A stretch of DNA of 64,000 nucleotides, taken from assembly GCA_001304015.1 (NCBI GenBank), contig LJUY01000005.1, forward strand, positions 1-64,000. Direction: 5' to 3'. This DNA is from a candidate division Zixibacteria bacterium SM23_81 (GTDB lineage Bacteria > SM23-81). Under the pieces are notes generated by a model. It made no database searches, was not told the DNA's origin, and was given only the letters and a program-made list of their open reading frames with translations. Below, piece after piece: positions 44,364-62,182 of the stretch. Made by a program: the position numbers and the translations under genes. Numbering within the stretch: the stretch's first letter is position 1; each line of letters opens with the position of its first letter.

Positions 44364-44409
44364 AAAAAAACGTCCCCACCAGAGACGTGCTCGTCTCCTC
44401 TGGGGACGT
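44364..44409 (-). terminator. Terminator after the UshA-like selenoprotein gene
   Basis: Minus strand CGTCCCCA ... TGGGGACG outer stem enclosing AGACG/CGTCT, followed by seven T residues. Lies between the UshA-like gene (ends 44485) and selA. Confidence 0.8.
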
Positions 44410-44484
44410 CTAAAACACGGCTTAAAAGTCTCCCCTGCTTGATATACGGAAGGCAGACGCTACCTTTCCCAGATCGCGTGGGGA

Positions 44485-45480
44485 TCATTCCCTTTTGGCT
44501 TTTCTCCGCGTTGGGTAGAGTTCCTGGAGCGCCGTCTTGTATTCTATCACCAATTGACCGAGCTCCTCGTCGTCTGCCACATTCTGATCCAAAAGGGTCC
44601 ATTGCACCTGATGAGATGTCACCATGTTTTGGTCATCCAGGATCAACTCGATGTCGCCCAGCTCGTTGTCGGAGACCGCCGGCAGCACGAATATGGTCCC
44701 GTCGACCTCTTCGGTATGCTTTCCTTTGGCACCCTTGCCGAAAAAGAAGAGGTCAATGCCGCTCACATTTTGGGCCACTCGTGTGGCCTGTCTGAGGTCA
44801 AGATCTGAGATGATAATCACCACGTCGCATCTTTTTCTCAGCCTCTCAACGGTGGTCTGAAGCACATCCTCTGGCTTGGCGATGATCATATCCCTGGAGA
44901 TTTGTGAGCCCTTGGGACCCCCACGTATCTCGTCGACTAAACCTATGATGGCCACTTTAATGCCCCCCCTCTTAAATCCCAAAAAGCTGGATGAGCCTAC
45001 TCTTTTAATCACATAGGGGGGCACCAGCAGTTGATTCCCGTTCTTCTTATAGAGGTTGCTGGAAATCAGAGGAAGACGTTCTCTGTCCCTCATTTCAAGT
45101 ATCTGGCCAGAGCCCAGAAGAATCTCCTCCCGGGCCAAGTTAATGGCATCATATCCCATGAGGGCCATGGCTTTGGCCAGGTATTTGGCCTTCAGTTCAT
45201 TGGTCGAGCCCTTGCCCTGCGCAAAGTTACCGATGTCCACGATCAGGTGGGGAGCTCCTCTGTCAAGCTTCTCATTAATCACCGTGGCTCTCCGAGCCAC
45301 GCCGCCATAGCGACAGCCCCGTCACCCGCTGGGTTCCATCCGGCCGCTGACATTGCCGGTGAACAGCACGTGCAAACTCATAGGATCTCGAGCCTGTGCC
45401 ACCGATACGCACAAAATCAGCACTCCAGCTGCCAACAAGATCGTTAATAACTCTTTTCGTCCGAATAAGTTTCCTAACAT
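44485..45480 (-). CDS. UshA-like metallophosphoesterase selenoprotein (Sec53)
   Basis: 331 aa when the TGA at 45322-45324 is read as Sec. The ATG at 45480 opens a signal peptide (to ~residue 30, ...VSVAQA), so the protein is exported. The mature N-terminus reads LFTGNVSGRMEPSG-U-RGC, followed by RYGGVARRATVI. Relatives of 5'-nucleotidase/UshA have a CGC-type motif here; this one has S-G-U, then U-x-x-C, a redox-type pair. The frame continues cleanly as VDIGNFAQG ... INLAREEIL ... VAIIGLVDEIRG, the metallophosphoesterase core. The C-terminal 5'-nucleotidase domain is absent. UshA-like (seleno)proteins are a known but uncharacterised family. Next to selA and a Sec-HdrA gene. Confidence 0.85.
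45283..45324 (-). promoter_or_regulatory. SECIS-type hairpin and UGA codon of the UshA-like gene
   Basis: Twenty bases after the TGA (45322-45324), CGTGGCTC pairs perfectly with GAGCCACG around a GGA triloop (45283-45301). Spacing and strength suit a bacterial SECIS; the loop lacks the GU seen in the other two. Confidence 0.6.
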
Positions 45481-45583
45481 GGGAGTATCACCCCCTAGGA
45501 GGTTTATGAAAATCGATCAGCCATTTTCAGCCATTGAATAAACAGAGGCCCCACCCTGCCCAGAAGGAGACCCGCTGATGTTA

Positions 45584-45727
45584 TCATGAGTCCTTTTTCT
45601 CCTTCAGACGCCTCACACTATTGCTGTCGCACTTTGGACAGGCCCTCTCCTCTGCGACCTTAGGAGTATATGGAGCCGTGAACCCGTGGCCACATCGTAG
45701 ACATTTAAATTTGGCTTCCTCTGCCAT
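45584..45727 (-). CDS. Small zinc-ribbon protein
   Basis: 47 aa: MAEEAKFKCLRCGHGF then ACPKCDSNSVRRLK. Two CxxC pairs form a rubredoxin/FmdB-like zinc ribbon; charged Lys-rich end. GAGGTG lies five bases before the ATG, and the gene starts 20 bases after the hdrA stop, so it is co-transcribed with the Hdr operon. Similar mini zinc ribbons occur beside hdr genes; it might be an assembly factor or a rubredoxin-like carrier. Function unknown. Confidence 0.75.
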   Translation of the reverse strand: MAEEAKFKCLRCGHGFTAPYTPKVAEERACPKCDSNSVRRLKEKKDS

Positions 45728-45747
45728 GATTCACCTCGCAAGGAATA

Positions 45748-48210
45748 TCAGGCCACGGCCTCTGCCTTAGCCTTGACCTTTTTGGTTCTCTTCTTCAACA
45801 TATCTTCTGTGATGACTCTCTTGGTGTGCTCGATTTCTTTTGCTGTGACGGCTTCTCTTAACTGCTCGACCTCGCGCATCACCCGAGCCCACTTCTGGCC
45901 CTCGGCCGCCGAGACCCAGTCCAGCTGGAGGCGCTCCGGGCGGATGCCCAGGGATTCCAGTTTGTCCCACAGCTTCTCGATTCTCTTCTGTGTCCAAGTG
46001 ACAGCGTTAATGTAGTGACAGTCGGTGAAGTGACAGCCGCTCACCAAGACTATTGGAGCGCCCAGTTTAAAAGCCTTTAGGATGAACCTCTCATCTACCC
46101 GACCACTGCACATGGTGCGAATGAGCCGGGCGTTGGGCGGGTACTGCAGCCGAGAGGTGCCGGCCAGATCGGCGCCGGGATAGGAGCACCAGTTGCAGGC
46201 GAAGGCGACGATCTTGTCCTGGGCATTCTCGGCCAGGATGGCCTCGATCTGGGCCATAATCTGCTCATCGGTGAAATGCCGCATGGTGATGGCCCCGAAA
46301 GGACATTCCGCGGAGCAGGTCCCGCAGCCAGCACAGGCGGCCTCCACCACCACGGCGGGGGTCTTCTTCTTGGTGTCCACATAGATGGCGTTATAGGGAC
46401 AGACCCGGGCGCAGATCCCGCAGCTGGTGCACAGCTCGGGGTCAACCATTGAGGTGATGGCCTCCACCGTCACCTCCCCGGATCTCATCAGCCGGTTGGC
46501 CCTGGCAGCGGCTGCCCCGGCTTGGGTGACTGAATCCTTTATGTCTTTAGGTCCCTCTGCACACCCGGCGAAGAAAATCCCCTGGGTGGCCGCATCCACT
46601 GGCTTCAACTTGGGATGAGCCTCCAGAAAGAAACCGTCGGCGCTGCGTTGCAGCGTAAGCTGCTGCTGCGTGTTGTCCATATCCCCAGGAGGAACCACTC
46701 CAATGGACAGAATGACCATGTCCACCTCATGCTTCTTTAGCTCACTTGTGGTGGTGTCCTCCGCGGTGAGGATCAGGTTTTTCGTCTTTGGGTCCTCGTA
46801 GATATCCCCGGGGATGCCCCGGATGTACTGTACCCCGGCGGCCATACTGCGCTTGTACAGGTCCTCGAAACCCTTGCCAAAGGCGCGAATGTCCATGTAG
46901 AAGACCTTGCACTGGACCTCCGGCCAATGGTCCTTGATGAGCAGCGTGTCCTTGATGGTGTTCATGCAACAGATGTTGCTGCAGTACGGGTTACCTCTCT
47001 TCTCGCATCTGGAACCGACACACTGGATGAAGGCCACAGTCTTGGGCTGTTTCCTGTCTGTGAGCCTGATGAGGTGCCCCTCGGTGGGTCCTCCCGAGTT
47101 GATCAGCCGCTCGAACTCCAACGAGGTGATGACGTTTTCGTACTGTGTGTAGCCGAACTCATCGAGCTCCGTGGGATCATACACCTCCATGCCGGTAGCC
47201 ACGATGATGGTGCCCACCTCCAGCTCGATCTCCTTATCCTGATCGTCATAGTCGATGCACCGCTTCTCGCAGGCCTCCAGACACTTGCCGCAGGCGATGG
47301 GCTCATTGCCCAGACAGTCCTCCATGTTCAGGACGAAGGCGGCGGGAACCGCCTGGGGAAATTCCTGATAGATGGCCTTGCGGGTGGACAGGCCCAGGTT
47401 GAATTCATCCGGCTTGACCACGGGGCAGACCTCCAGGCAATCTGCGCAGGCGGTGCATTCCTTCTCGTCCACATACCGTGCTTTTTTCAGGACTGTTACC
47501 TTGAAATTCCCCACATAACCGTCCACCCTCTGGACTTCACTCAGGGTCAGGAGCTCTATGTTCGGATGCCGACCGGCATCCGCCATCTTGGGTCCCAGAA
47601 TTCATATAGAGCAGTCCATGGTGGGATAGGTCTTGTCGATCTGAGCCATGATCCCACCGATGGACGGCTGTTTTTCCACGAGATAGATGTGATAGCCCGC
47701 GTCGGCCAAGTCCAAGGCCGCCTGAATGCCGGCCACCCCTCCCCCGATGACCATAGTTTTCTGAATCACCGGGACCTTGGTCTCCATCTGCGGCTCAAGG
47801 AGTTTGGCCCTCGCTGCAGCCATGGCCACCAGATCCATGGCCTTTTGGGTGGCCTTCTTGGGCTCATTGATATGCACCCAGCTGCAGTGTTCCCGGAGGT
47901 TAGCCATCTCCATGAGGTACGGATTGAGTCCGGCCTCCTGTACTGCCGCCCGAAAGGTGGGCTCGTGCATTTTGGGGGTACAGGAGGCCACCACCACTCG
48001 GTTCAGGTTGTGCTCGGCGATGGCATCCTTGATGGTCTGCTGCCCGGGCTCCGAACAGGTGTACTTCTGAAAGTCGGAGTAGACCACATTGGGCAATTCC
48101 TCGGCGAATTTGGCCACATCTTCGCACTCCACTGTGCCAGCTATGTTCAGCCCGCACTGACAGACGAAAACGCCAATCCTGATCTCCTCTGGGGAGCTTT
48201 TGTTGGCCAT
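45748..48210 (-). CDS. hdrA: HdrA-type flavoprotein fused to MvhD, selenoprotein (Sec203)
   Basis: 820 aa when the TGA at 47602-47604 is read as Sec. ATG at 48210 has AAGGAGGAG upstream. Order: N-terminal HdrA domain ([30 protein letters not shown]), FAD site [17 protein letters not shown] (~163), the DCSI-U-ILGPKM segment (~199-209), 4Fe-4S motifs ([24 protein letters not shown]), second FAD half, two ferredoxin clusters ([24 protein letters not shown]), then an MvhD domain ([22 protein letters not shown]). Protein homology is continuous across the UGA, which excludes two genes. HdrA is the flavin-bifurcating subunit of heterodisulfide reductase-type complexes; Sec at this site is known from methanococcal HdrA. 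Confidence 0.93.
47563..47604 (-). promoter_or_regulatory. SECIS-type hairpin and UGA codon of hdrA
   Basis: Nineteen bases after the TGA (47602-47604), CGGATGCC pairs perfectly with GGCATCCG around a GGTC loop (47563-47582). Strong stem with GU in the loop, as in known bacterial SECIS elements. Confidence 0.75.
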
Positions 48211-48249
48211 AGCGTTACTCCTCCTTATTTTTTTCACTGTATTTTTGCT

Positions 48250-48460
48250 AAATTCGTGGTTTCCTTATCGACGCTCGTTTATGGGTATCGAAGCTGGTAA
48301 CGTTTATCGTGGATCTTCTATCGTGAATCGTAAAAGCTAAAAATCCCAACCTGCCAACTGCCACTGCCAACTGTCACTGTCATTTCTATTGCCATTGCCA
48401 TAGCCATTATTCATAATTCGAGTTTCGCTACGATCAATCCAACCTGGAAACCGTCGTTAG
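48250..48460 (-). repeat. Intergenic inverted-repeat element, copy C
   Basis: The gap 48211-48469 carries the 19-base core as GGTATCGAAGCTGGTAACG (48284-48302), then TATCGTGAATCGT resembling copy A, and a degenerate TGCCAACTGCCACTG / GCCATTGCCATAGCCAT tract (~48351-48408). It separates hdrCB from hdrA inside the operon. No gene; strand nominal. Confidence 0.65.
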
Positions 48461-48469
48461 AGCAACGGG

Positions 48470-49630
48470 CTATTTCTTTCTCTTCGATGAGGGCAGGGAG
48501 TCGGCCACCAAGGTGGCCAAATCCCGAATTTCAATGTCCAGAGATCCGCCCAGATGTGTGTCCTTCATCGCGCAGGTAAGGTGAATCTGGCACTTGGGAC
48601 AGGCGGTGACCAAAATCTGGGCCCCGGTTTGCTTGGCCTCCCGGAGGCGCATCATCTGGATCTGCTTGGAGGCCAAATCGCAGTTCATCCAGGCGCTGGT
48701 ACCACAACACAATGCAGTGTGTTTGTTGTGGTACATCTCCCTCAGCTCAAGGTCCCCGATGGACTTCAAAAGCTCTCTCGGCGGGTCGTATAAGCCCATG
48801 TGTCGACCCAGTCGGCAGGGATCGTGATAGGTCACGGCCTTGTTCAGCCTGCCCAGGGAAAGCGGGTTTTGCGACGATCCCCCAGCCATAAGCTCGCTGA
48901 GATGGAGAACTTCAAATTTCAACTTTCCGAAATAACGGGGATAGTCCAGTTTGAAAGTGCGGTAGCCCTCGGGACAGGAAAAGACCACCCTTTTGGCCCT
49001 ACTTTTCTCGATCTCCTTGAGATTGTGTTCGGCCAGCCTCTTAAAGTTATCCTCATCCCCTGCCCACAGCATATCGTGCCCACAGCATCGCTCGTTTTCC
49101 AAAAGCATCGGCTTAATGCCCAAGCCATTCATGATTCTGATGGTGCTCCGGGCGGTGTTCAGAGTGTGGACATTCAGATCTTCAAAGAAGGCGTCGAAAT
49201 AGGGAAGACAGCCGACGAAGTAAAGGTCCTCACCTCTTTTGGAAACGCTTAGATCTTTATCCAACCATCCCAGCCGGTTTTGTTTCAATTTCGGAGCAGT
49301 CATGATCCTCATCAAGGATTGAAAGGCGCCCCCATGGGAGCAAAACTCCCTCTGACCCAGATCCCGATAAACCCCTCGAATTCTCCTCTGGAACTCAATA
49401 TACTGCACGTCGGAGGGACACCTCTCCTCGCACATCTTACAGCTCAGACAGGACCACAGTAACCGCGTTTTGCCCAGCTTCTCGCCCTCTCCCAATATGA
49501 CGCTTTTGACCATCACCCTGGGGGAATAAGCCTTGTCGAAGAGGGAGACGGGGCAGTTTCCGGTACACTTTCCGCAATCCAGGCAATAATAGGCCTTGGT
49601 CTGTTTGATGGCCTCGGCAATCTCATCCAT
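48470..49630 (-). CDS. HdrC-HdrB fusion (heterodisulfide reductase-like)
   Basis: 386 aa. HdrC part (residues 1-~110): two [4Fe-4S] motifs, CLDCGKCTGNCP and CLSCKMCEERCP. HdrB part: two CCG domains; the second is complete (DPCRLGRH, ALCCGTSAW, ACPKCQIH), while the first has Cys and CCG but ends SCPEGYR, losing one Cys of CxxC, so only one noncubane cluster may be fully ligated. Such HdrBC modules reduce disulfides or pass electrons to an unknown acceptor. Fifteen bases after the GltD-HdrA-MvhD gene and upstream of hdrA. Confidence 0.87.
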   Translation of the reverse strand: MDEIAEAIKQTKAYYCLDCGKCTGNCPVSLFDKAYSPRVMVKSVILGEGEKLGKTRLLWSCLSCKMCEERCPSDVQYIEFQRRIRGVYRDLGQREFCSHGGAFQSLMRIMTAPKLKQNRLGWLDKDLSVSKRGEDLYFVGCLPYFDAFFEDLNVHTLNTARSTIRIMNGLGIKPMLLENERCCGHDMLWAGDEDNFKRLAEHNLKEIEKSRAKRVVFSCPEGYRTFKLDYPRYFGKLKFEVLHLSELMAGGSSQNPLSLGRLNKAVTYHDPCRLGRHMGLYDPPRELLKSIGDLELREMYHNKHTALCCGTSAWMNCDLASKQIQMMRLREAKQTGAQILVTACPKCQIHLTCAMKDTHLGGSLDIEIRDLATLVADSLPSSKRKK

Positions 49631-49644
49631 ACATCGACCCTCTC

Positions 49645-52029
49645 TCAGCTCCTCAACAAGTTAGGTCCCAATTTGCTCATCTTCGTGGCGAATAGCCGGA
49701 TGATTCTCTTCAGCTTGGTGCTCTCCCCGGAGGAGATGGTCTCCAGACGCAGCCTTTGCTTCTCGATTCCCAAGGTATGCATCAGCTTATGGGCCATATC
49801 GACCTGCGTCTCTGCCACTCGGTTTCCGAAACTGTAGTGACACTTTTCGGAGGTACAGCCCAACATCAAAACCCCATCGGCCCCCAACTCAAGGGCTCGC
49901 AACATCAAACCGGAGTTGACGCTTCCCAAGCACATAACGCGGATGAGGTGCAGGCCTGCCGGAATTTCAAATTCGGCTCTTTCAAGGAGGGGATACGCGC
50001 TCCAGTTGCAACCAAAACAAACGATGTGCGGCCTGGCGCCTTCACCTTTTCTTTTGCCACCGACCGAACCGGCCAGAAGATGCTCTAAGGTTTCGGTGAT
50101 GCGAGCTTCCGTGAAGTGACCCAGAATGCTGGCTCCCGTGGGGCAAACGGTCACACAGGCACCACAACCCCGACAAATGGATTGGTCCACCTGGGAGACC
50201 ACCACCCCATCCTCCCGGCTCACCATCTTGCGGGCTTCGTACTCACACACCTGGGCACATTCAGCACATCCTCGACAGAGCTCTTCCCAGACTTGACACA
50301 CCACGGGTGATGCGAGGGCCCGCAGGCTTTCACCCGCTGGCCCTTGGATGTGGACCTCCCAGGGCTCATGGCCATTGGGAAACCGATCAGAAAGCCAGGG
50401 AATCCGCACCAACACCTGCTCTCCCGTTGTCCCAGGAACGGAGAGGGCCAACAGTTTCTGGTGGCACTCGGCGATGCACTTCTCGCACTCGGAACAAGGA
50501 CCGCACATCAGGCACCGACCGGCCTCTCGTCGAGCACTTTCCTCCGAGGGAAGGTGCTCCACCTCGTGGAAGTGATTTCTCCAGGACTTGGGAGCTTCCC
50601 GTAAGGTCCGCATGCGGTTTTTGTGCTCGGGCACCCAGTCCTCGATGACCACCTCGGCCTGTCGCTCTCCAGGATCTTTTGGAGCAGGCTTCAGTTCTTT
50701 GCCTTTGAGATAATGATAGAGAGAGGCGGCCGCCTTATGGCCAACGGCGATGGCCTCGATGACCGATTTCGGTCCGCTGACGGCGTCCCCTCCGGCGAAA
50801 ATCCCCTTTGTCTTCGTGGCCAGGGTTTCCGGCTCCACCACCAGGGTGTTCCATGGGGAGATCTCAAAGCTGTGATTCTTGGGTAAAGACGATAGGTCTG
50901 GCTCTTGATGGATGGCAAAAATGACGGTGTCGGCTGGGAGGCTGAACTCAGAGCCCTTTATGGAGGAAGGCTGTCTTCTGCCCACCTCATCCGCCGGACC
51001 GGAGCGCATCTTGGCGCAGGTTACCCCTCGAACTCGACCGTTTCGTCCCAATACTTTAACGGGAACAACATGACAATGAAGCCTGACCCCCTCTCTCTCT
51101 GCCTCCCTGGCCAGATCGGGATAAGGCAGCTCCTGCTTGGAGCGACGGAAGATCACATCTACATGGCGGCTGCCCAACCTCAGGGCTGTTCTGGCCGAAT
51201 CCAAGGCCGCATACCCGGCTCCGATAATCACCACCCTGTTCCCCAGTCTTTCCCCGGAGCCCAGATGAACCCCCTTCAGGAATGTCAGGGCATCGAGAGA
51301 ATGCTGGAGTTCCTCGCCGGGAATGCCCAGCTTCAACCCTCTATGGGCGCCGGTGGCCATGAATACCGCCTTATATCCCTGGCGAAGAAGCCGACGGGGG
51401 TCTTTGACTTCTTTCTTTGTTCGGATGTCCACGCCCAAGTCTGCGATGGCGGCAATCTCCGCCTGGATTACGTCCCTGGGAAGGCGGAATGGGGGAATCC
51501 CCACAGAGAGCATCCCCCCAGCCACGGGCAACTTTTCAAAAACGGTAACGCTGAAGCCCAACCGGGCCAGATCGCTGGCAGCGGTGAGACCTGCCGGACC
51601 AGAACCAACAATGGCCACCCTCTCCTGCCCTGTTTTCCTAGCGCCTCTCACCTTGGGTTTCTCCGAGGCCTGTTTAAGCTCGTAGTCGGCCACAAAGCGC
51701 TTTAGCATCCGGATGGCCACGGGCTCATCGACCTCACCCCGGTGGCATTCGGGCTCGCACGGATGCATGCATACCCGGCCGCATATGGCCGGGAAGGGAT
51801 TCGTTTCTTTGATCAGCTCCAGAGATTTTTTAAACTCGCCCCCCGCGATGAGACCGACGTAGCCCTTCACATCAGTGCCCAGAGGACAGGCCACCTTGCA
51901 CTGAGAGGTCTTGACCCGACGGAGAGTGTAAGGACCCAACTCAGCCTGAGGAAAATGAAGAACGACTTCCTCCTGCTCTAGAAGCGCTCGAATATCGGCA
52001 ATGCTCTCTTTCTCCGCAACCTTACCCAT
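49645..52029 (-). CDS. GltD-like/HdrA-like flavoprotein fused to ferredoxin and MvhD domains
   Basis: 794 aa. N-terminal Fe-S region of the glutamate-synthase small-subunit type (CPLGTDVKGYVG; CGRVCMHPCEPECHRG, residues ~45-100), FAD site VAIVGSGPAGLTAASDLARL (~138), NAD(P) site VVIIGAGYAALDSARTALRL (~275), GGDAVSGPKSVIEAI (~415). Then CLMCGPCSECEKCIAEC, two ferredoxin-type clusters (CRGCAECAQVCE; CRGCGACVTVCP, ~590-640) and an MvhD-like end (CFGCNWSAYP, MCLGSVNSG, GCTSEKCHY). The MvhD domain has lost the second Cys of CxxC (NWSAY instead of NWCSY). Likely a flavin-containing electron hub joining the NuoEF module to Hdr. Confidence 0.88.
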   Translation of the reverse strand: MGKVAEKESIADIRALLEQEEVVLHFPQAELGPYTLRRVKTSQCKVACPLGTDVKGYVGLIAGGEFKKSLELIKETNPFPAICGRVCMHPCEPECHRGEVDEPVAIRMLKRFVADYELKQASEKPKVRGARKTGQERVAIVGSGPAGLTAASDLARLGFSVTVFEKLPVAGGMLSVGIPPFRLPRDVIQAEIAAIADLGVDIRTKKEVKDPRRLLRQGYKAVFMATGAHRGLKLGIPGEELQHSLDALTFLKGVHLGSGERLGNRVVIIGAGYAALDSARTALRLGSRHVDVIFRRSKQELPYPDLAREAEREGVRLHCHVVPVKVLGRNGRVRGVTCAKMRSGPADEVGRRQPSSIKGSEFSLPADTVIFAIHQEPDLSSLPKNHSFEISPWNTLVVEPETLATKTKGIFAGGDAVSGPKSVIEAIAVGHKAAASLYHYLKGKELKPAPKDPGERQAEVVIEDWVPEHKNRMRTLREAPKSWRNHFHEVEHLPSEESARREAGRCLMCGPCSECEKCIAECHQKLLALSVPGTTGEQVLVRIPWLSDRFPNGHEPWEVHIQGPAGESLRALASPVVCQVWEELCRGCAECAQVCEYEARKMVSREDGVVVSQVDQSICRGCGACVTVCPTGASILGHFTEARITETLEHLLAGSVGGKRKGEGARPHIVCFGCNWSAYPLLERAEFEIPAGLHLIRVMCLGSVNSGLMLRALELGADGVLMLGCTSEKCHYSFGNRVAETQVDMAHKLMHTLGIEKQRLRLETISSGESTKLKRIIRLFATKMSKLGPNLLRS

Positions 52030-52034
52030 GGACG

Positions 52035-52823
52035 CTATTCCTTTCTGACCCGTTTCAGAAACTCATGGTACGCGGACACAGATTCGAGATCGCAGTTTCG
52101 GGCCACGAATATGGGGTGAGTGTCCATGTGGTCCCGAAACCTCTGGTCCACCTCACACTGAGCGCAACGAAAACTGTTGGCGCAGAGGGCATAGGGCAAG
52201 ATGCCCATCAGCGAATAACGGCACTCCCTGTGTTCCCCCGGCCGCTCCCGAAACTGTTGAGCGGTCTCGGCTTCCATCTGTATGGCTCCCGTGGGACAGA
52301 GATAGGTGCAAACGCCGCATGCTATGCAGGTATCGGAGGCTTTGTCAAAAGGTTTGCTCCAGGTCCGGTCTGAACCGCGATTGGCAAAGCAGATGGCACT
52401 GGCACCCACCACGGACTCACAGACGCGAACGCAGAGACCGCAGAGGATGCAGTCCTCCTCTGGATTCTCAACTGGGAAACGTATCTTCTTAATTCCATAC
52501 TCCGCGGCCATGGCCCTAATGATCTTCACCTTGGGAGCGCGGGCCATAAGAAGTTCCAAGTTCATCTTGCGCGCCGCCAGCGCCCTGTTAGATTTCGTCC
52601 AAACCGTCATACCCTGCTGTACGGCGGTGTTACAGGCGGTCACCAGCTCAGATTTTCTCTCCTTGATGACCTCAACCATGCATATACGACAGGCTGCATA
52701 AGGCTCCAGGGCGGGGTGATGGCAGAGGGTGGGAATCTCGAGGCCCAGCTTTTGGGCAGCCTGAAGAATGGTCGCTCCGCGCTCAGCTTTCACCAGTTTG
52801 CCATCTATTTTCAATGAGATCAT
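52035..52823 (-). CDS. NuoG/HydA N-terminal-type Fe-S protein without H-cluster
   Basis: 262 aa. [2Fe-2S] plant-type domain (CHHPALEPYAACRICMVEV, ~residues 34-52) then two [4Fe-4S] motifs (CILCGLCVRVCE ~145; CIACGVCTYLCP ~190). The His-Cys3 cluster motif that usually sits between them in NuoG/HydA is absent, and there is no H-cluster or molybdopterin domain. The tail carries an extra cysteine set (CRYSLMG, CANSFRCAQCEVDQ) that I cannot place. It would take electrons from NuoF and hand them to the HdrA-like proteins. Ends five bases before the next gene. Confidence 0.85.
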   Translation of the reverse strand: MISLKIDGKLVKAERGATILQAAQKLGLEIPTLCHHPALEPYAACRICMVEVIKERKSELVTACNTAVQQGMTVWTKSNRALAARKMNLELLMARAPKVKIIRAMAAEYGIKKIRFPVENPEEDCILCGLCVRVCESVVGASAICFANRGSDRTWSKPFDKASDTCIACGVCTYLCPTGAIQMEAETAQQFRERPGEHRECRYSLMGILPYALCANSFRCAQCEVDQRFRDHMDTHPIFVARNCDLESVSAYHEFLKRVRKE

Positions 52824-52832
52824 CGGACCTCC

Positions 52833-54626
52833 TCAATCGATGCACACGGCCTCAAATTTGCACACATCGAAACAGATACCACATTTCACACACTTCTGTT
52901 GATCGATGAGGTGCGGCTGTTTTTTACCGCCGGAGATGGCGTCTTCGGGGCACTCCTTGCGGCAAAGGCCACACGCCGTGCATGCGTCTGGGTCAATGCG
53001 ATAGGTGTTCAACTGGCGGCAAACGTGGGCGGGACATCTTTTTTCTTTGATATGAGCCTCATATTCATCTCGAAAATAGCGCAAGGTGGTCAGAACAGGA
53101 TTGGGGGCGGTCTTGCCCAGACCGCAGAGAGATGTTTCTTTCACTTCATGAGCCAGCTGTTCGAGGGTTTCCAGGTCCTCTTCGGTGCCCTTGCCTTCCG
53201 TAATTTTTTTTAGAAGATGCAGCATCATCTTCGTGCCCTCACGGCATGGGGTGCACTTTCCACAAGACTCGTCCTGTGTAAAGGACAGAAAGTATCGAGC
53301 GATATCCACCATGCAGGTATCCTCATCCAGCACCACCATACCCCCGGATCCCATCATGGAGCCTGCCTCGCTGAGGCTTTCGTAGTCAACGGGCAAATCC
53401 AGGAGCTCGGCGGGAATACAACCTCCAGAGGGACCACCCGTTTGCACGGCCTTGAAGGCTTTTTCATGGGGAATGCCACCCCCGATGTCGTAGATGATCT
53501 CCCGCAAGGTAATTCCCATGGGCACCTCGACCAGGCCCGTGTTGTTGATTTTCCCCACAAGTGAGAAGACCTTTGTGCCCTTACTGGTTTCGGTGCCGAT
53601 CTGGGAGTACCATTGAGCGCCGCGCCTGATGATGCTGGGGACGTTAGCCCAAGTCTCCACGTTATTATTGTTGGTCGGCTTGCTCCAAATGCCATGCTCT
53701 GTGGGAAAGGGGGGACGCGGCCGCGGCTCCCCCAGGCGCCCCTCTACAGAGGCCATCAGGGCCGTCTCCTCTCCGCACACGAAAGCCCCTGCTCCTCTGA
53801 CAATCTTGATATCAAAATCAAAGCCGGATCCCAGAATATCTTTGCCAAGCAGACCGTAATTACGGGCTTGTTCCAAAGCGATGATCAACCTTTTGAGGGC
53901 CAGGGGATATTCGTTTCGGATATAGATATAACCCTGATTAGCGCCGATGGCATAGGCACCGATGATGAGGCCCTCGATCACCGAATGGGGATCGGCTTCC
54001 ACGATGCTTCTATCCATAAAAGCGCCGGGATCTCCTTCGTCCGCGTTGCACAGGACGAATTTGCCGCCATTCGATTTGGCCTTTCGGGTCAGCTCCCATT
54101 TCAGGCCGGTGAGGAAACCAGCGCCACCTCTGCCTCGAAGACCTGAATCCTTGATCTCTTGAATAATCTCCCTGGGCTTCATCTTCAAGGCCTTGGCCAA
54201 ACCAAAATAGCCATCCCTGGCGATGTACTCGTCGATGCGCTCTGGATCGATCAGTCCCCTGTTTCGCAAAGCTATCAGGCGCTGCTGCTTGAAGAAGCCG
54301 ATGTCGTTCATCTTCGGAATGGGGGTCTGTTCACCTGGAGGCGAATACATGAGCCTCTTCACCGGCCGACCCTTTAGGAAATGCTCCTCCACCACGTAGG
54401 GGATGTCTTCCTCCCTGAGCTGCTGGTAAAAGATGCCCTCGGGGTGAACGACCACCAGGGGGCCCACAGCGCAGAAGCCGTTGCAGCCCGTGGTTACCAC
54501 GGCAATCTCATCCTGGAGCCCTTGTTTTTCGATTTCACGCTCCAGCGCTTCCTTAATGTGGAAAGACCTGTTTGAGACACAAGCTGTGCCTGCACAGACC
54601 ATACAGTATGAGCGATATGTTTTCAA
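52833..54626 (-). CDS. nuoF: NuoF/HydB-type NADH-binding FMN subunit
   Basis: 597 aa, the long bacterial hydrogenase/bifurcating form. N-terminal thioredoxin-like [2Fe-2S] domain (CAGTACVS; TTGCNGFC; ~residues 10-50), FMN/NADH domain with GLRGRGGAGFLTGLKW (~155) and GAGAFVCGEETALMASVEG (~275), SLBB region, [4Fe-4S] ESCGKCTPCREG (~455), and a C-terminal two-cluster ferredoxin (CTACGLCRKECP; CVKCGICFDVCK). Oxidises NADH or reduces NAD+. Same build as HndC/HydB. Confidence 0.93.
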   Translation of the reverse strand: MKTYRSYCMVCAGTACVSNRSFHIKEALEREIEKQGLQDEIAVVTTGCNGFCAVGPLVVVHPEGIFYQQLREEDIPYVVEEHFLKGRPVKRLMYSPPGEQTPIPKMNDIGFFKQQRLIALRNRGLIDPERIDEYIARDGYFGLAKALKMKPREIIQEIKDSGLRGRGGAGFLTGLKWELTRKAKSNGGKFVLCNADEGDPGAFMDRSIVEADPHSVIEGLIIGAYAIGANQGYIYIRNEYPLALKRLIIALEQARNYGLLGKDILGSGFDFDIKIVRGAGAFVCGEETALMASVEGRLGEPRPRPPFPTEHGIWSKPTNNNNVETWANVPSIIRRGAQWYSQIGTETSKGTKVFSLVGKINNTGLVEVPMGITLREIIYDIGGGIPHEKAFKAVQTGGPSGGCIPAELLDLPVDYESLSEAGSMMGSGGMVVLDEDTCMVDIARYFLSFTQDESCGKCTPCREGTKMMLHLLKKITEGKGTEEDLETLEQLAHEVKETSLCGLGKTAPNPVLTTLRYFRDEYEAHIKEKRCPAHVCRQLNTYRIDPDACTACGLCRKECPEDAISGGKKQPHLIDQQKCVKCGICFDVCKFEAVCID

Positions 54627-54647
54627 GGTGTTCTCTCCCGCCTACGA

Positions 54648-55040
54648 CTAAAATGTCCTCTCGCTACCCAAGGCGAGGGCATACTCCATCACTATCTTCC
54701 CTTTGAGCACGTGATCGGTGAAGATCGTGCGCGCTTTTTCCGGTGTCAAATCGACGTACTTGACGGGAGCTTGGCCCGCCAATTCCACGGTAGCCATGGG
54801 CTCTCGACTGCACAGGCCGGCACAGCCAGAAGTCGTTATGATGACGTCCTTGGCATCCTTTTTTTCAATTTCATCCAGGAAAGCGACCATGATATCCCTG
54901 GCGCCTGCCGCTATGCCGCATGTGCCCATATGCACAGTGATCTTGGCTTTCCCAGCGCCTTCGCGCAACATAGTCATCCTTCGAGATTTCTCTTGGATTT
55001 TTCGTAGATCATCCAATGTCAGCTTCGGCATTTCCGACAC
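54648..55040 (-). CDS. Thioredoxin-like [2Fe-2S] ferredoxin subunit (HndB-like)
   Basis: 130 aa. Cysteines in GTCGIAAGARD (~residue 40) and TSGCAGLCSREP (~75) are the ligands of NuoE/HndB-type [2Fe-2S] domains. Small electron-transfer subunit usually sandwiched between NuoE and NuoF genes in bifurcating hydrogenases and dehydrogenases, as here. Confidence 0.88.
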   Translation of the reverse strand: MSEMPKLTLDDLRKIQEKSRRMTMLREGAGKAKITVHMGTCGIAAGARDIMVAFLDEIEKKDAKDVIITTSGCAGLCSREPMATVELAGQAPVKYVDLTPEKARTIFTDHVLKGKIVMEYALALGSERTF

Positions 55041-55085
55041 CTCTGCGACTGATGAATGCCACTTTCAGGCAATGAAAAAGAAGGC

Positions 55086-55556
55086 TCAGCTCTTCGAGCC
55101 AGCTTCTTTGTATTTCTTCAGAATCCTGGACAGCTGGGCAGGCTCCACCTGTCCGTAAAGATCTTCTCCCACTGTGACAACGGGTGCCAGGCCACAACAG
55201 CCAACGCAACGGACGGCCTCCAGACCAAAAGTTCTATCTGGCGTTGTCTGGCCAGTTTTGATCCCTAAATCCCGTTCCAGCTTTTCCAGGATGCGGGGAG
55301 CACCCTTTACATGACAAGCAGTGCCCAGACACACGTTAATGGGATATCTCGCTCTGGGCGTAAGGGAAAAGGCTTTGAAAAAGGTCGTCAGACTGTAGAC
55401 GCGGCTCAAGGGAACGTCCAGCTCCTCGGTGATCCTGATGGCAACCTCTTCGGGAATGTAGTGAAATTCTTCCTGAACATCCTGTAAGATGGCTATTAAA
55501 GCGCTGCTATCGCCGCGGTACCTCTCCAAGATTCTGTCTATAGCAGCTGTTTTCAT
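55086..55556 (-). CDS. nuoE: NuoE/HydC-type [2Fe-2S] subunit
   Basis: 156 aa from the ATG at 55556 (GGAGG five bases upstream). NuoE fold with CLGTACHVKGA (~residue 80) and CVGCCGLAPVV (~120), the four [2Fe-2S] ligands. Partner of NuoF. First structural gene after the regulatory block; 73 bases separate it from the ATPase gene, without a recognisable promoter. Confidence 0.93.
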   Translation of the reverse strand: MKTAAIDRILERYRGDSSALIAILQDVQEEFHYIPEEVAIRITEELDVPLSRVYSLTTFFKAFSLTPRARYPINVCLGTACHVKGAPRILEKLERDLGIKTGQTTPDRTFGLEAVRCVGCCGLAPVVTVGEDLYGQVEPAQLSRILKKYKEAGSKS

Positions 55557-55644
55557 CTTTACCTCCAGCAATGATGCGTTTTTCTCTTTTCTCTCTGTTG
55601 GTCACTCTCGTTCTGCTTTACCCCTGGAGAATCAGAATGAAGAA

Positions 55645-56175
55645 TCAATGAAAATCCTGTTTCAATTTTTCTCGGAGGCTGCGCAATCCCTGGGGTGAAA
55701 CAACAAGAAGATCCTCCAATCGAACCCTCAGGTCTCTTGAGCAAAGATTGAACTCCCTGACACCTCTCTGGTGACGATACACGAATTCGACGTGGGGATT
55801 TCCCACGATAAGGGTCAGCAGCGTATCCCCTATGTTTCCCAGAGGTTGTCTATCGATATGGCTGTATTGAAAGACCGCTTTGACCTTCGTTCCTCTATAG
55901 GGTTCAGAATGGATGGTCAAGCTCCCATTGCTCATTCTGGCTGCTTGGGCCAGCAGGGACAGGCCAAACCCTACCCTCCTCTCCGTTCTGGTCGATACGA
56001 AAGGACTCGTTGCTTTTTTTACAAAGCTCTTGTCCATTCCTTTGCCGTCATCCATGATCTCGATCGAAAGAGAATCTTTTTCCAAGTCCTCCGTGATAGC
56101 GATCTCCACATGCTTTGCCCCGGCAGTAATTGAGTTCTCCACGATGTCCAATATATGTAGCGAAAGGTCCTGCAA
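55645..56175 (-). CDS. HATPase-domain (GHKL) regulatory protein
   Basis: 176 aa. Histidine-kinase/anti-sigma-like ATP-binding motifs: HILDIVENSITAGAKHV (N box), IEIMDDGKGMD (G1), RRVGFGLSLLAQAA (G2). No phospho-acceptor His domain or membrane segment, so it acts alone or with a partner. Such stand-alone ATPases accompany sensory [FeFe]-hydrogenase genes. Start is a TTG with GAGG seven bases upstream. Confidence 0.82.
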   Translation of the reverse strand: MQDLSLHILDIVENSITAGAKHVEIAITEDLEKDSLSIEIMDDGKGMDKSFVKKATSPFVSTRTERRVGFGLSLLAQAARMSNGSLTIHSEPYRGTKVKAVFQYSHIDRQPLGNIGDTLLTLIVGNPHVEFVYRHQRGVREFNLCSRDLRVRLEDLLVVSPQGLRSLREKLKQDFH

Positions 56176-56182
56176 GATTTCC

Positions 56183-56917
56183 TCAATGAATGACCATTCT
56201 ACCCTCTACCCCTCGCAGGGCTTTTTCGATCTCGCTCAAATAGGGGCCTTTCAGAAGAAAGCCGGTGGTCCCTTGACCAATCTGCTCTAAATGATGAGCA
56301 TCCGAGGATGAGATAAGCGCATAGTTAGAAAGACGGTCAAATTCTTCTCGCCTCCCGTCCAGAGGGCTCCTGGGCGATATCTCAAGAGCATCAAATGCCA
56401 GATTCTCCGGAATGAACCCCAGCTGTCCGATAATTCCAAATCCCTCTCGATCGATGTGCGCCGCTATGGCCAGCCCGGCATGGTGATGGATGTAGCGAAC
56501 AACATCATCGATGGAAAGATCCGCGGCACCTATCAGAAGCCTTTTGTTGAAATCCAACACCTCAGAGAACTCATTGACCACCACCTGCATGCCAAATGCT
56601 TCCTCGTCATTCTCCCCGGACAGGTGAGCGTAGACAACACTCTGCATGGCCAGAGCATCTTCCAAATTCTCAAAGAGCGCGATGATGTGAACTTCTTCCT
56701 GAGACGTCACCTCCATTCCCGGCAACACCCTTAAATCCCTCCCCACAGCCGCCCGCATGACCGCGATGACGTTCTCGCAACTATTATGATCGCATATGGC
56801 GATGATGTCGATATCTTTTTTCAGCGCTGTCTCCACAATTTTTCTTGGAGACATCTGGAGGTCGCCGCAAGGGGAAAGGCACGTATGCACATGCAAATCT
56901 GCCACATACCTTTTCAT
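56183..56917 (-). CDS. PHP-domain phosphoesterase
   Basis: 244 aa. PHP metal ligands: ADLHVHTCLSPCG at the N-terminus, CDHNSCENV (~42), later AHIDREGFG and SSDAHHLEQIG. Trinuclear-metal phosphoesterase fold; substrate unknown. Overlaps the DRTGG gene by four bases. Recurrent member of [FeFe]-hydrogenase regulatory clusters. Confidence 0.87.
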   Translation of the reverse strand: MKRYVADLHVHTCLSPCGDLQMSPRKIVETALKKDIDIIAICDHNSCENVIAVMRAAVGRDLRVLPGMEVTSQEEVHIIALFENLEDALAMQSVVYAHLSGENDEEAFGMQVVVNEFSEVLDFNKRLLIGAADLSIDDVVRYIHHHAGLAIAAHIDREGFGIIGQLGFIPENLAFDALEISPRSPLDGRREEFDRLSNYALISSSDAHHLEQIGQGTTGFLLKGPYLSEIEKALRGVEGRMVIH

Positions 56918-57264
56918 CGCCCCGGCGCCCTAGAAACCCCCAACTGATATAGCCTGCCCACCACATCAAAGGTGGGCAGACTTGTGACCATGATGGGAAT
57001 TCCCTCCTCCTGTGCCCTCTTTAGGGTCTCCTCATCCGGCTCCCTTCCATTCACGATGACGATCCCGGCCAGCTCCCTCACCACAGCGACGCCCACGACG
57101 TTCTGATGAACCTGTAAGGTCACCCAGAGGTTCCCCGGCTGGGCATTGGCCAGCACGTCGCTCAGCAAATCACTAGCATAGCCCCCGTTAACCTCCACTG
57201 CGAGTTTCTCAGAAGCTGTTCTTTCCTTTAAACCGAGTTTCTCGACGACGTCCTTGAGAATCAT
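56914..57264 (-). CDS. DRTGG-domain protein
   Basis: 116 aa from the ATG at 57264 (GGGGGGAG upstream), overlapping the preceding gene by 56 bases. MILKDVVEKLGL and NGGYASDLLSDVLANAQPG match the DRTGG domain also found in phosphotransacetylase and pyruvate-kinase-like regulators, thought to bind a ligand. Conserved companion of sensory hydrogenase genes. Confidence 0.82.
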   Translation of the reverse strand: MILKDVVEKLGLKERTASEKLAVEVNGGYASDLLSDVLANAQPGNLWVTLQVHQNVVGVAVVRELAGIVIVNGREPDEETLKRAQEEGIPIMVTSLPTFDVVGRLYQLGVSRAPGR

Positions 57265-58579
57265 CGGCTTTCTCCCCCCCATGCTCCGCAGATTGGCCGG
57301 AACCACCAGATGACGCTGACTGTCTTTCCAGAAGTACGAAGATGCAGTCGGTCAGTTTGGCCTCTTTTCGTACCACATCTTCGGCAAAGGCCATACAGTT
57401 GGGAGAACCGCAAGCACCACAATCTATCTTGGGCAAACCTTCGTAGATCCCCTGCTTCTGCTTCATCAACTGAATGGCCTGGGAAACATCCTCGGCCAAA
57501 GGCCGAACAGGTCGTAGCTGTAATTTCTCGTCTAATAAGAAGTATTTAGCACGGTAAAGCTTTTTGATGTAATCGGTATTCTGTTGAGGTTGTTCTCCGA
57601 AAATTTCCAACAGCTTCACGATCTTGCTCCGAGCTACATAGGGATTCTCCACGGTCAGAGATCCACCGATGCAGCCGGCTGGGCAGGTGCGACATTCGAT
57701 GAACTCAACGTCCCGGAGCTTCCCTTTTTCGATCTCCTCAAAAATTCTGATCACCTCGCTAAGCCCCGAAACCGCCAAACAATTCTTCAATTTTAAAGAT
57801 TTGATCACCCCACCCAATATGGGCCATCCCAGGCCTATACCGCTCACCTTGCGCATCTCCCTACCCTCGATGACGGCCTCCTGATCAGACATGGCCGAGA
57901 GAAGGGGTCCATAGACATCCGCTATGGAGACGGCCCCGTCCAAAAATGATTTTTTCTTTCTGGGGTGACGCCTGATGGCCACCATCTTGGCAGGGCATGG
58001 AGTCACGTAGATGGCTCCGATGCGACTCTGGCTCAAACCTAGCTCTTTAGATTTTTTTAACTTCACCTCTCTAGCTGCGATCTCCATGGGAGATTCTATC
58101 GGCAGCAACAGCTCCGAGAGGTCTGTGAACCTTACCTGTATCAAGCGGACGATAGTTGGACAGAAGGCAGAGATGACCGGCCTGGGACCCTGATATTGAG
58201 CCCAAAACTCCTCTATGGCCATGCTCACTAATTCACAGGCCTGAGCCACATCGCCGACATCGTCAAACCCGATCTTCCTTAAGGCGCTCAGGATGTGGTC
58301 GGGAAGCACGATATCTGAAAATTGCCCATAGAGAACAGGCGAGGGAATGGCAACCACGTGCTGGAACTTCGAGAAGTCGGTGAAGGAATCGGTCAGGGGC
58401 ACGATGGCGTTGCTAGGACAGGTGGTGATGCACTCGCCACAGTCGATACATCTATCCTCCAGAATCCGTGCCTTGCCCCCTCTTACTCGAATGGCCTCTG
58501 TGGGACAGACACGAAGACAGGCCATCCGACCATCGCACTTTCCCGGATCAATATACAGTGAATGAATTCGATTGCTCAT
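57209..58579 (-). CDS. Sensory-type [FeFe]-hydrogenase-like protein (HydS-like)
   Basis: 456 aa. Two N-terminal [4Fe-4S] motifs (CDGRMACLRVCP; CIDCGECITTCP, residues ~14-53), then an H-cluster-like domain with modified loops: L1 AFCPTIVRLIQ (~138), L2 VTPCPAKMVAI (~190), L3 IECRTCPAGCIGG (~295). All four [4Fe-4S]H cysteines are present, but the catalytic TSCCP, MPCxxK and GGGxxP features are altered, as in sensory group C/D enzymes. A PF04060-like 4Fe-4S domain (CGACGSPNCMAF, ~400) precedes a Ser/Gly-rich tail. Probably senses H2 or redox state and signals through the ATPases, PHP and DRTGG neighbours rather than making H2. Confidence 0.83.
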   Translation of the reverse strand: MSNRIHSLYIDPGKCDGRMACLRVCPTEAIRVRGGKARILEDRCIDCGECITTCPSNAIVPLTDSFTDFSKFQHVVAIPSPVLYGQFSDIVLPDHILSALRKIGFDDVGDVAQACELVSMAIEEFWAQYQGPRPVISAFCPTIVRLIQVRFTDLSELLLPIESPMEIAAREVKLKKSKELGLSQSRIGAIYVTPCPAKMVAIRRHPRKKKSFLDGAVSIADVYGPLLSAMSDQEAVIEGREMRKVSGIGLGWPILGGVIKSLKLKNCLAVSGLSEVIRIFEEIEKGKLRDVEFIECRTCPAGCIGGSLTVENPYVARSKIVKLLEIFGEQPQQNTDYIKKLYRAKYFLLDEKLQLRPVRPLAEDVSQAIQLMKQKQGIYEGLPKIDCGACGSPNCMAFAEDVVRKEAKLTDCIFVLLERQSASSGGSGQSAEHGGEKADDSQGRRRETRFKGKNSF

Positions 58580-58594
58580 GCGACATGGCAGAGA

Positions 58595-59023
58595 TCAGAT
58601 TTTGACAGAAAACCGGACCGTGGTACCAAGCCCCACCTCTGAGCTGATCTCCAGCTCATCGGCATTCTTTTTAATATTGGGGAGCCCCATGCCGGCACCA
58701 AAACCCATCTCCCTAATCTCCCGCGATGCTGTGGAATATCCCTCCTGCATGGCTAACCCGATGTCCGCAATACCCTGGCCTTCATCCTCGACCACGATGG
58801 TGATCTTCTCGGGGGTAACCATAAAGCTCAATGTCCCTCGCCGTGCATAGAGCACCACGTTCATCTCCGCCTCATAGGAGGCAGTGGATACTCGCCTGAT
58901 GACCAAAGGGGAAATGCCGATCTGTTTGAGTATGTTCCTCAACCTGCTGGAAGCCCTCCCGGCGTTGTTGAAATCACCTCCCTCTATGGCAAATTCCTGT
59001 TGGAACGACGTTTCTGAAGCCAT
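58595..59023 (-). CDS. Anti-sigma-factor-like ATP-binding protein
   Basis: ~142 aa. RsbW/SpoIIAB-like: RRVSTASYEAEMNVVLYA (N box), VEDEGQGIADIG (G1), GFGAGMGLPNIKKNAD (G2). Cytoplasmic kinase-like ATPase that may switch partner proteins. Directly upstream of the HydS-like gene. Start uncertain: ATG at 59023 has only GGTG upstream, and in-frame ATG 59035 or GTG 59062 are alternatives. Confidence 0.8.
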   Translation of the reverse strand: MASETSFQQEFAIEGGDFNNAGRASSRLRNILKQIGISPLVIRRVSTASYEAEMNVVLYARRGTLSFMVTPEKITIVVEDEGQGIADIGLAMQEGYSTASREIREMGFGAGMGLPNIKKNADELEISSEVGLGTTVRFSVKI

Positions 59024-59144
59024 AGGACACCGCATCAAAGATCGATACTCGTGGGAACTCACTCAACTACAGATCGTTAGACTTCATCCGGAATCCCGTT
59101 TGTCCCTGTGCACGGCAAAATAGATCATCAATCGGCAGAGAACC

Positions 59145-59723
59145 TCAACAGCGACCAGCCGTTCCCGCTTTGCCCCTTTTTTCCTTACCTCTTAGCTCAA
59201 GGCCATATTCATAACCTTTGTCGAAGGCTTTCAGGTTTAACTCCACAAATCGAGAGGGTACTAAAGTGGGAATGGCCTTTTTCATCGCCTCCACAGTCAC
59301 CACTTCGCTGATGGCCGTGAAAAAGCCCAGCATGACCACATTGGCGATGATTCGATTGCCCAGTTCTTCGGCGAACCGTGTGGCGGGGACGGAATAAAGC
59401 TTGATGTTTCCCCGCAACGGTTTTGGGCGGACCAAGTCCTCGTCGATGAGCAGCAATCCCTCGTCGCCGAGCTCAGGTTCGTATTTACTATAGCCTTCCT
59501 GGGACATGGCTACCATGACGTTGGGCACCGTTACATAAGGATAGAGAACCCTGTCGTCCGAGACAATCACCTGGGCGCTGCAGGCACCTCCCCTGGCCTC
59601 GGGGCCAAAGGACTGATTCATGGTGGCAAATTTGTCATCGTAGAGGGAGGCGGCTTTTCCGATGATAATGCCCGATCGGATGATCCCTTGACCTCCGTAC
59701 CCGGCAAATCGAATCTCGATCAT
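59145..59723 (-). CDS. korC: 2-oxoacid:ferredoxin oxidoreductase gamma subunit
   Basis: 192 aa. IRFAGYGGQGIIRSGIIIGKAA at the start and NQSFGPEARGGACSAQVIVSD are the CoA/gamma-domain signatures. Part of the four-subunit 2-oxoglutarate (Kor) type enzyme; start overlaps korB stop by four bases. Confidence 0.93.
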   Translation of the reverse strand: MIEIRFAGYGGQGIIRSGIIIGKAASLYDDKFATMNQSFGPEARGGACSAQVIVSDDRVLYPYVTVPNVMVAMSQEGYSKYEPELGDEGLLLIDEDLVRPKPLRGNIKLYSVPATRFAEELGNRIIANVVMLGFFTAISEVVTVEAMKKAIPTLVPSRFVELNLKAFDKGYEYGLELRGKEKRGKAGTAGRC

Positions 59724-61824: not shown

Positions 61825-62095
61825 CTTTTGCCTCCTTATCCTCTTTCTCAGTCACGAATATGGCAAAGTCCGGGCATAGCATCTCACAGAGCTGACAGTG
61901 GACACACGCCTCTTCATCCTTGACACGGGGAGGATGGTATCCTTTTACGTTAAACTCCTCCGACATCTCCAGAACATCCTTGGGGCAGTACTCCACGCAA
62001 AATCCGCACCCCTTACAGCGATCTTTGATGATGTGAATCTCTCCCCGGGGAACCTTGACCTGATCGCTATCCAGGGGCCGCCGCCAATATTTCAT
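61814..62095 (-). CDS. korD: 2-oxoacid:ferredoxin oxidoreductase delta (ferredoxin) subunit
   Basis: 93 aa from the ATG at 62095 (GAGGTGG upstream; a GTG three codons earlier is possible). Two [4Fe-4S] motifs: CKGCGFCVEYCP and CVHCQLCEMLCP. Passes electrons from the TPP site to free ferredoxin. First gene of korDABC, behind a near-consensus promoter. Confidence 0.93.
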   Translation of the reverse strand: MKYWRRPLDSDQVKVPRGEIHIIKDRCKGCGFCVEYCPKDVLEMSEEFNVKGYHPPRVKDEEACVHCQLCEMLCPDFAIFVTEKEDKEAKVEG

Positions 62096-62153
62096 CTCTT
62101 CCACCTCGCCGATGGGTATTTTTACACTGAGAAATATGAAAAGTTATCTTTTT

Positions 62154-62182
62154 ATTGTACCTAATGACCTAATACTTGTCAA
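62154..62182 (-). promoter_or_regulatory. Promoter of korDABC
   Basis: Minus strand TTGACA (62177-62182), 17-base spacer, TACAAT (62154-62159). Inferred start ~50 nt before korD. It may also serve the downstream regulatory/Hdr genes, since no terminator is seen after korC. Confidence 0.8.

Follow-up and report, generated by a model that had tools for sequence, protein, structure and literature searches.

Which enzyme is encoded by a gene cluster that combines NuoE, NuoF and NuoG homologues with Hdr modules? We analysed such a cluster in the candidate division Zixibacteria bacterium SM23_81, within a window of 64,000 nucleotides (nt; contig LJUY01000005.1, positions 1 to 64,000). On the minus strand it encodes, in this order, NuoE, an HndB-like subunit, NuoF, a 262-residue NuoG, a 794-residue GltD–ferredoxin–MvhD fusion, an HdrC–HdrB fusion (HdrCB), an HdrA–MvhD fusion with selenocysteine (Sec) and a zinc ribbon (Table 1). 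The initial annotation read it as an operon of hydrogenase style whose H-cluster subunit had been replaced by Hdr modules. The gene order given there is confirmed: all open reading frames (ORFs) are present, and the named domains were found except for the flavin adenine dinucleotide (FAD) part of HdrA in the GltD protein. However, the conserved partner of the Hdr block, overlooked in that annotation, is not NuoEF but 2-oxoglutarate:ferredoxin oxidoreductase (Kor). We tentatively favour the reading that the operon encodes Kor and a soluble Bfu–Hdr electron bifurcating or confurcating complex.

The Kor-linked Hdr block and its selenocysteine

The korDABC genes head the predicted transcription unit that carries the Hdr block, so that Hdr and Kor belong to one cluster. 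A genome scan with an alignment of HdrCB yielded 438 relatives, the best 80 of which were mapped; these are the most similar loci, and thus fractions derived from them are not unbiased frequencies. They belong to Stahlbacteria/WOR-3, Cloacimonadota, KSB1, Neomarinimicrobiota, Zixibacteria, Eisenbacteria, Chloroflexi and other lineages. In 33 of the 36 Sec-HdrA loci whose upstream sequence spans 6.5 kb or more, the kor genes precede HdrCB; among the 11 other loci, one has this order, on a contig that ends right after HdrCB. Linked in the window are genes for citrate synthase, an aconitase-family protein and NADP-dependent isocitrate dehydrogenase, as well as sucD and nfnAB. The first three together with sucD suggest that Kor is specific for 2-oxoglutarate, and the whole set fits electron traffic between ferredoxin reduced by Kor, NAD(P)H and a high-potential couple.

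The evidence that HdrA is a selenoprotein, as first annotated, is very strong. The in-frame TGA (codon 212, 47602-47604) occupies the CxxU position, and every one of the 58 split HdrA homologues is split at the TGA. The hairpin of the selenocysteine insertion sequence (SECIS) type behind it is nearly invariant across Sec-HdrA loci (GGAUGYC-GGUC-GRCAUCC), with paired changes. A Sec island with tRNA-Sec, selA, selB and a Sec-type selD lies beside the operon, just downstream. The corresponding Cys197 of M. wolfeii is a ligand of the cluster at the N terminus of the partner HdrA (PMC9012536). Residues E356 and K409 (M. wolfeii numbering), located close to the FAD and needed for flavin bifurcation in HdrA (PMC12054007), have equivalents here in E376 and K429, as seen in the alignment to 5odc_A.

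Nine relatives (L038, L041, L043, L063, L067, L072, L080, L094, L099) have an UxxU HdrA with two TGAs three codons apart (DUAIUILGPRM). A 2026 selenoproteome review gives HdrA only as CxxU, with one Sec (PMC13188914).

NuoEFG and the GltD–MvhD fusion

In an end-to-end alignment, NuoF keeps all cysteine sets of A. mobile BfuB (7t2r_B, the NiFe hydrogenase subunit B chain). It has the flavin mononucleotide (FMN) domain and the ligand sets of the predicted clusters B1–B5, and the cysteine sets of BfuB define the bifurcating core (PMC9304861). NuoE adjoins this block, as does BfuC in the Bfu family.

As annotated, NuoG ends at 262 residues, and domain and ligand analysis found no H-cluster domain, His-Cys3 motif or C-terminal catalytic domain in it. 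It retains ligands for one [2Fe-2S] cluster (C34/C45/C48/C64) and two [4Fe-4S] clusters, which presumably map to A1, A2 and A4. Clusters A3 and A5 are absent and further subunits are added, which is the Type 2 Bfu arrangement. There, a short BfuA with neither H-cluster nor His-Cys3 is the norm (Schut et al. 2022, PMC9304861); the matching chain 9mqx_A is a NuoG-like protein of 247 residues. The short NuoG is therefore a known Type 2 Bfu state rather than a truncated hydrogenase, and the notion of a hydrogenase operon with a replaced H-cluster subunit is not supported (PMC9304861; PDB 9mqx_A).

The C-terminal cysteine motif is common to NuoG of the window and of loci L043, L094 and L203, and absent from the ordinary short BfuA compared. 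Motifs of this type also occur in other proteins. A response-regulator protein (L088:3545-4612) has two of the form C...G...C...Y.C..CEF(D/G)Q. In NuoG–GcvH-like fusions (L204:8769-10058 and L205:3905-5188, both on the minus strand) the linker carries the CR..MG..C.N...C..CEVDQ motif of the window NuoG. A role of the GcvH-like domain as lipoyl carrier was rejected, since the domain, judged by eye, lacks the lipoyl lysine.

The 794-residue protein had been called a GltD–HdrA–MvhD fusion. Its GltD, HdrA-type ferredoxin and MvhD parts are present, but it matches HdrA over the ferredoxin part only and the FAD domain of HdrA is absent. The flavin that it contributes is therefore that of GltD and not another one of HdrA type, and the flavins of the block are one of HdrA type, the FAD of GltD and the FMN of NuoF. 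The GltD nucleotide motif is GAGYAA, and by the GXGXXA rule such a motif favours NADP(H) (quoted in PMC12054007); this is a weak hint that GltD may prefer NADP(H). Disulfide reductases of HdrB type have two full CCG motifs, which serve two noncubane clusters. In HdrCB, the second CCG motif is complete and the first lacks its last cysteine (SCPEGY); relatives have SCPECY or SCPEGY (alignment of 12).

Probable coupling of Bfu to Hdr and alternative readings

Bfu is likely to be coupled to Hdr, judging from Bfu–HdrA fusions in relatives, the sister of the window NuoG in genome G004 and the shared C-terminal motif of NuoG. The fetched loci include 28 NuoG–HdrA fusions, three HdrA–NuoE fusions and a single NuoF–GltD fusion (G004, locus L206). 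Combinations of HdrA with GltD occur in relatives, and the genome of SM23_81 itself has NuoG–HdrA and HdrA–NuoE fusions on contig C70. In the NuoG tree, whose bootstrap had not settled, the window protein is sister to the NuoG–HdrA fusion of G004 (99/99). The G004 operon shares the order RsbW–DRTGG–PHP–HATPase–NuoE–HndB with the window. The proposal of one NADH/ferredoxin/disulfide bifurcating complex thus survives in part: a Bfu core coupled to HdrA is plausible from the NuoF cysteines, the E356/K409 equivalents and the fusions, whereas a hydrogenase-derived origin is not upheld.

Contig C70 (58000-74000, L207) contains a further Bfu–HdrA cluster with MvhD, HdrB/C-like proteins, a TfrA-like flavoprotein, a likely fumarase and a NiFe hydrogenase.

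From the gene content, the conservation of domains and ligands, the selenocysteine, the kor linkage and the fusions in relatives we infer a physical complex, with an order and direction of electron flow and an acceptor as follows. Firstly, NuoE–NuoF–short NuoG, as a Type 2 Bfu, would exchange electrons with NADH and ferredoxin. Secondly, mid-potential electrons would pass from the NuoG clusters to the GltD–ferredoxin–MvhD protein, which may also exchange with NADPH. This protein would feed the bifurcating FAD of Sec-HdrA, the MvhD fused to HdrA serving as a second port. Finally, HdrA would exchange low-potential electrons with ferredoxin (the Kor pool), and high-potential electrons with HdrCB and a putative disulfide-type or other high-potential couple. 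Running oxidatively, the complex would confurcate reduced ferredoxin made by Kor and high-potential electrons into NAD(P)H; in reverse, it would make reduced ferredoxin for the carboxylation of succinyl-CoA.

If so, many uncultured anaerobes have their 2-oxoglutarate oxidation connected directly to a bifurcating hub, and this would help to explain how their citric acid cycle can be reversible when no external electron acceptor is used. The Bfu–HdrA pairing would extend beyond benzoyl-CoA reductase, many genomes having fusions of Bfu with HdrA parts, and selenocysteine would sit at a cluster ligand that bridges two HdrA copies. A bolder version is possible, if rather doubtful: one supercomplex that bifurcates at two sites (the FMN/FeS core of NuoF and the FAD of HdrA), with GltD–MvhD as the bridge. 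It would serve 2-oxoglutarate oxidation or carboxylation by trading between ferredoxin, NAD(P)H and a thiol or succinate couple of high potential. In several candidate phyla, anaerobes could then take the 2-oxoglutarate step of the cycle in both directions.

Several observations weigh against a Bfu–Hdr complex. Most Kor–Hdr operons lack NuoEFG, which may therefore be accessory or a separate enzyme; indeed, in the same-phylum genome G002 the operon runs kor–GltD–HdrCB–HdrA without it. The 232-nt gap upstream of HdrA leaves room for a separate promoter. With one of its usual cluster cysteines missing, HdrCB is of uncertain chemistry. An AlphaFold model of GltD–MvhD, computed from four sequences, was too poor to be used (mean pLDDT 50.7).

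Among the mapped loci, NuoEFG stands next to a full Sec-Hdr block only in the window, in L043 (Cloacimonadota) and in L094 (Stahlbacteria). Locus L203 has NuoE–NuoF–NuoG–GltD, but its short contig does not extend far enough to show Hdr; in L043, L094 and L203 the NuoG gene overlaps or directly adjoins that of GltD. In L087, NuoF and a molybdopterin NuoG precede a Cys-type Hdr block. A search with a short-NuoG profile in 147 genomes of the Stahlbacteria phylum, 125 of the Cloacimonadota phylum and 386 others produced no further complete case. According to the initial annotation, its complex would be refuted if the hdr genes were not conserved beside nuoEF. In most relatives they are not, but the pairing turns up again in lineages far apart. 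We rejected the idea that the arrangement had a single origin: the trees of NuoG (bootstrap not settled, as said) and NuoF place the window apart from L043 and L094, and thus the association formed, or was rearranged, at least twice.

The scarcity of NuoEFG in kor-bearing Sec-HdrA loci, nearly all of which lack it, suits a different view, namely two enzymes in one operon. NuoE–HndB–NuoF–NuoG, with or without GltD, would be a stand-alone NADH/ferredoxin enzyme such as a split Nfn-Bfu transhydrogenase, and Kor–HdrCB–HdrA–MvhD would be independent. Indeed, Nfn-Bfu, in which BfuA is fused to a GltD-type domain, works without Hdr (PMC9304861; PDB 9n5u), and the gap before HdrA agrees with such a division. 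On the other hand, GltD is fused to MvhD and directly precedes MvhD–HdrCB–HdrA in Kor–Hdr operons without NuoEFG, and hence belongs to the Hdr part. Moreover, Bfu–HdrA fusions are found in many genomes, and the nearest relative of the window NuoG is fused to HdrA. We consider the two-enzyme arrangement unlikely, though a serious competitor.

The best NCBIfam match of HdrCB is TfrB, below the cut-off. One possibility, which we regard as improbable, is that the same complex has succinate/fumarate as its high-potential partner by way of a TfrA-type flavoprotein, Kor ferredoxin and succinate being confurcated to NAD(P)H. In G002, L063 and L080, genes resembling TfrA/SdhA are found a short way upstream of the kor operon. 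Furthermore, tfrAB genes are interspersed with kor and hdr (PMC6315080) and also cluster with OGOR and Hdr (PMC8542988). However, the window has no TfrA, the TfrA-like gene and fumarase of this genome sit with the other Bfu–HdrA cluster, on C70, and all NCBIfam matches that bear on this variant are below the cut-off.

An [FeFe]-hydrogenase (HydABC) was rejected, as NuoG has no H-cluster domain and no HydF was found over the cut-off in the genome, which is 93% complete. An adjacent H-cluster subunit elsewhere with conserved linkage, named at the outset as a ground for refuting the original reading, exists in a formal sense only, since HydS in the same cluster carries a PF02906 domain. However, HydS is sensor-like: Cys140, 195, 299 and 303 are kept, and the usual SCC motif is down to one cysteine. 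The genome has two PF02906 proteins in all, both HydS-like and both adjoining Bfu clusters; the second (contig C26) is similarly placed, in a cluster with a molybdopterin NuoG, as for a sensor or regulator. That HydS supplies an H-cluster is thus very improbable. An aryl-CoA reductase of the Bam type, suggested by the same kinds of modules in Bam-Bfu (Bfu and HdrA; PMC9304861), is more improbable still and was rejected, as the genome has no match anywhere to the AOR family (PF01314, BamB) and the linkage here is to Kor.

The second HydS-containing Bfu cluster (C26, 18000-36000, L037) includes a 959-residue molybdopterin NuoG and nfnAB.

Known systems, operon limits and neighbouring genes

Kor, NuoEFG, GltD–MvhD, HdrCB and Sec-HdrA together were not found described in the open-licence papers searched. 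Their combination, tied to the citric acid cycle, appears to be undescribed so far; bifurcating machines of such parts are known in outline. One is the class II benzoyl-CoA reductase BamBCDEFGHI (Bam-Bfu), which also has MvhD- and HdrB/C-like subunits. It shares with our operon the pairing of Bfu with an HdrA-type module, whereas here the genome has no homologue of tungsten BamB, Kor is linked and GltD is fused to MvhD. In Bam-Bfu, the Type 2 Bfu trimer BamGHI and the HdrA-type module were purified as one complex (PMC9304861).

Hdr–Flx genes are interspersed with korABCD/tfrAB in tubeworm symbionts and Thioflavicoccus, and direct electron shuttling was proposed (PMC6315080, PMC11636981); Ca. 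Celaenobacter has an Hdr–OGOR–TFR cluster (PMC8542988). The input in these clusters is FlxABCD or, in Celaenobacter, Mvh hydrogenase; here it would be NuoEFG and GltD–MvhD. Por-Bfu of Dehalococcoides likewise has a single operon for a Type 2 Bfu and a 2-oxoacid:ferredoxin oxidoreductase (PMC9304861), but no Hdr modules are described and the substrate is pyruvate, not 2-oxoglutarate. Nfn-Bfu/Stn (PDB 9n5u and relatives) resembles our operon in that BfuBC is accompanied by a GltD-type NADP(H) domain, to which BfuA supplies electrons; there the domain is part of BfuA, whereas here it belongs to a separate chain fused to MvhD. HdrABC–MvhD of M. wolfeii (5odc) and MetVF–HdrABC–MvhD have an HdrA with bifurcating-FAD residues and MvhD input; the window operon has no Mvh hydrogenase, formate dehydrogenase or MetF, and has NuoEFG and Kor instead. 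Finally, Type III HdrA of methane-metabolizing archaea combines HdrA with GltD, and NAD(P)H was proposed as its mid-potential partner (PMC12054007). There GltD is inserted in HdrA, whereas here GltD–MvhD is a chain of its own.

The predicted transcription unit extends from korD to a strong terminator hairpin (Table 1). RsbW, HydS, DRTGG, PHP, HATPase and NuoEFG lie between korC and GltD. The intergenic gaps from NuoE to the zinc ribbon are 45, 21, 9, 5, 14, 232 and 20 nt. The range of 5-20 given initially thus holds for most of the block and fails chiefly before HdrA, and also at NuoE–HndB and HndB–NuoF. Likewise, the span of 44485-55571 begins with a metallophosphoesterase-like ORF, not with the zinc ribbon, and the unit continues upstream beyond it through korCBAD to the promoter-like site.

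Table 1. Features of the predicted kor–nuo–hdr transcription unit and of the adjacent Sec island
Feature	Position	Strand	Evidence or remark
Sigma-70-like promoter TTGACA-17-TACAAT, 5' of korD	62154..62182	-	Consensus scan, 11/12; promoter-like matches overall not commoner here than in shuffles
korD, 2x[4Fe-4S] ferredoxin subunit	61814..62104	-	96-residue ORF, two CxxCxxC motifs; same gene heads kor in relatives
korA, 2-oxoacid (2-oxoglutarate):ferredoxin oxidoreductase alpha	60616..61824	-	NCBIfam PRK08659 over cut-off
korB	59720..60613	-	Best NCBIfam match 2-oxoglutarate ferredoxin oxidoreductase beta, below cut-off
korC (gamma)	59145..59723	-	NCBIfam PRK08537 below cut-off; 75% identical in same-phylum genome G002
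RsbW-like ATPase	58595..59062	-	Homologues in other Bfu clusters
HydS-like protein, sensor-like	57209..58579	-	PF02906 4.5e-28
DRTGG-domain protein	56914..57306	-	Homologues in other Bfu clusters
PHP-domain protein	56183..56917	-	
HATPase_c protein	55645..56175	-	PF02518
NuoE / BfuC, [2Fe-2S]	55086..55571	-	PF01257 3e-48
HndB-like thioredoxin-fold [2Fe-2S] subunit	54648..55040	-	Weak PF01257, below cut-off; 70% identical to HndB of G004
NuoF / BfuB; NAD(H), FMN, five FeS clusters expected	52833..54626	-	Full-length match to 7t2r_B, E 8.8e-268
Short NuoG / Type 2 BfuA with C-terminal CRYxLMG...CANSFRCxxCEVDQ extension	52035..52823	-	9mqx_A 5e-41
GltD–ferredoxin–MvhD fusion, 794 residues	49645..52029	-	Pfam Fer4_20, Pyr_redox_2, Fer4, FlpD
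HdrC–HdrB fusion	48470..49630	-	PF02754 and Fer4
HdrA–MvhD selenoprotein, Sec212 at Cys197 position of M. wolfeii HdrA	45748..48237	-	HdrA2 NF040770 over cut-off; alignment to 5odc_A; 58/58 TGA
SECIS-type hairpin, GGUC apical loop, ~20 nt 3' of TGA	47563..47582	-	Folding; kept across Sec-HdrA loci
FmdB-like zinc ribbon	45584..45727	-	PF09723 / TIGR02605 below cut-off; 3' of HdrA in several relatives
Metallophosphoesterase-like ORF, in-frame TGA, last gene before terminator	44485..45480	-	
Rho-independent-type terminator	44370..44410	-	Long hairpin followed by a T run; folding energy of a 71-nt stretch, -35.7 kcal/mol
tRNA-Sec, adjoins selD	39234-39324	-	
selD, Sec-type	38104-39114	-	Sec in own motif AAGUAAK

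The metallophosphoesterase-like ORF, which has no Pfam match, is a possible selenoprotein: codon 53 is a TGA (EPSGURGC), and a hairpin is found 3' of it, but without a GGUC loop. Its relatives presumably carry cysteine at the position of the TGA.

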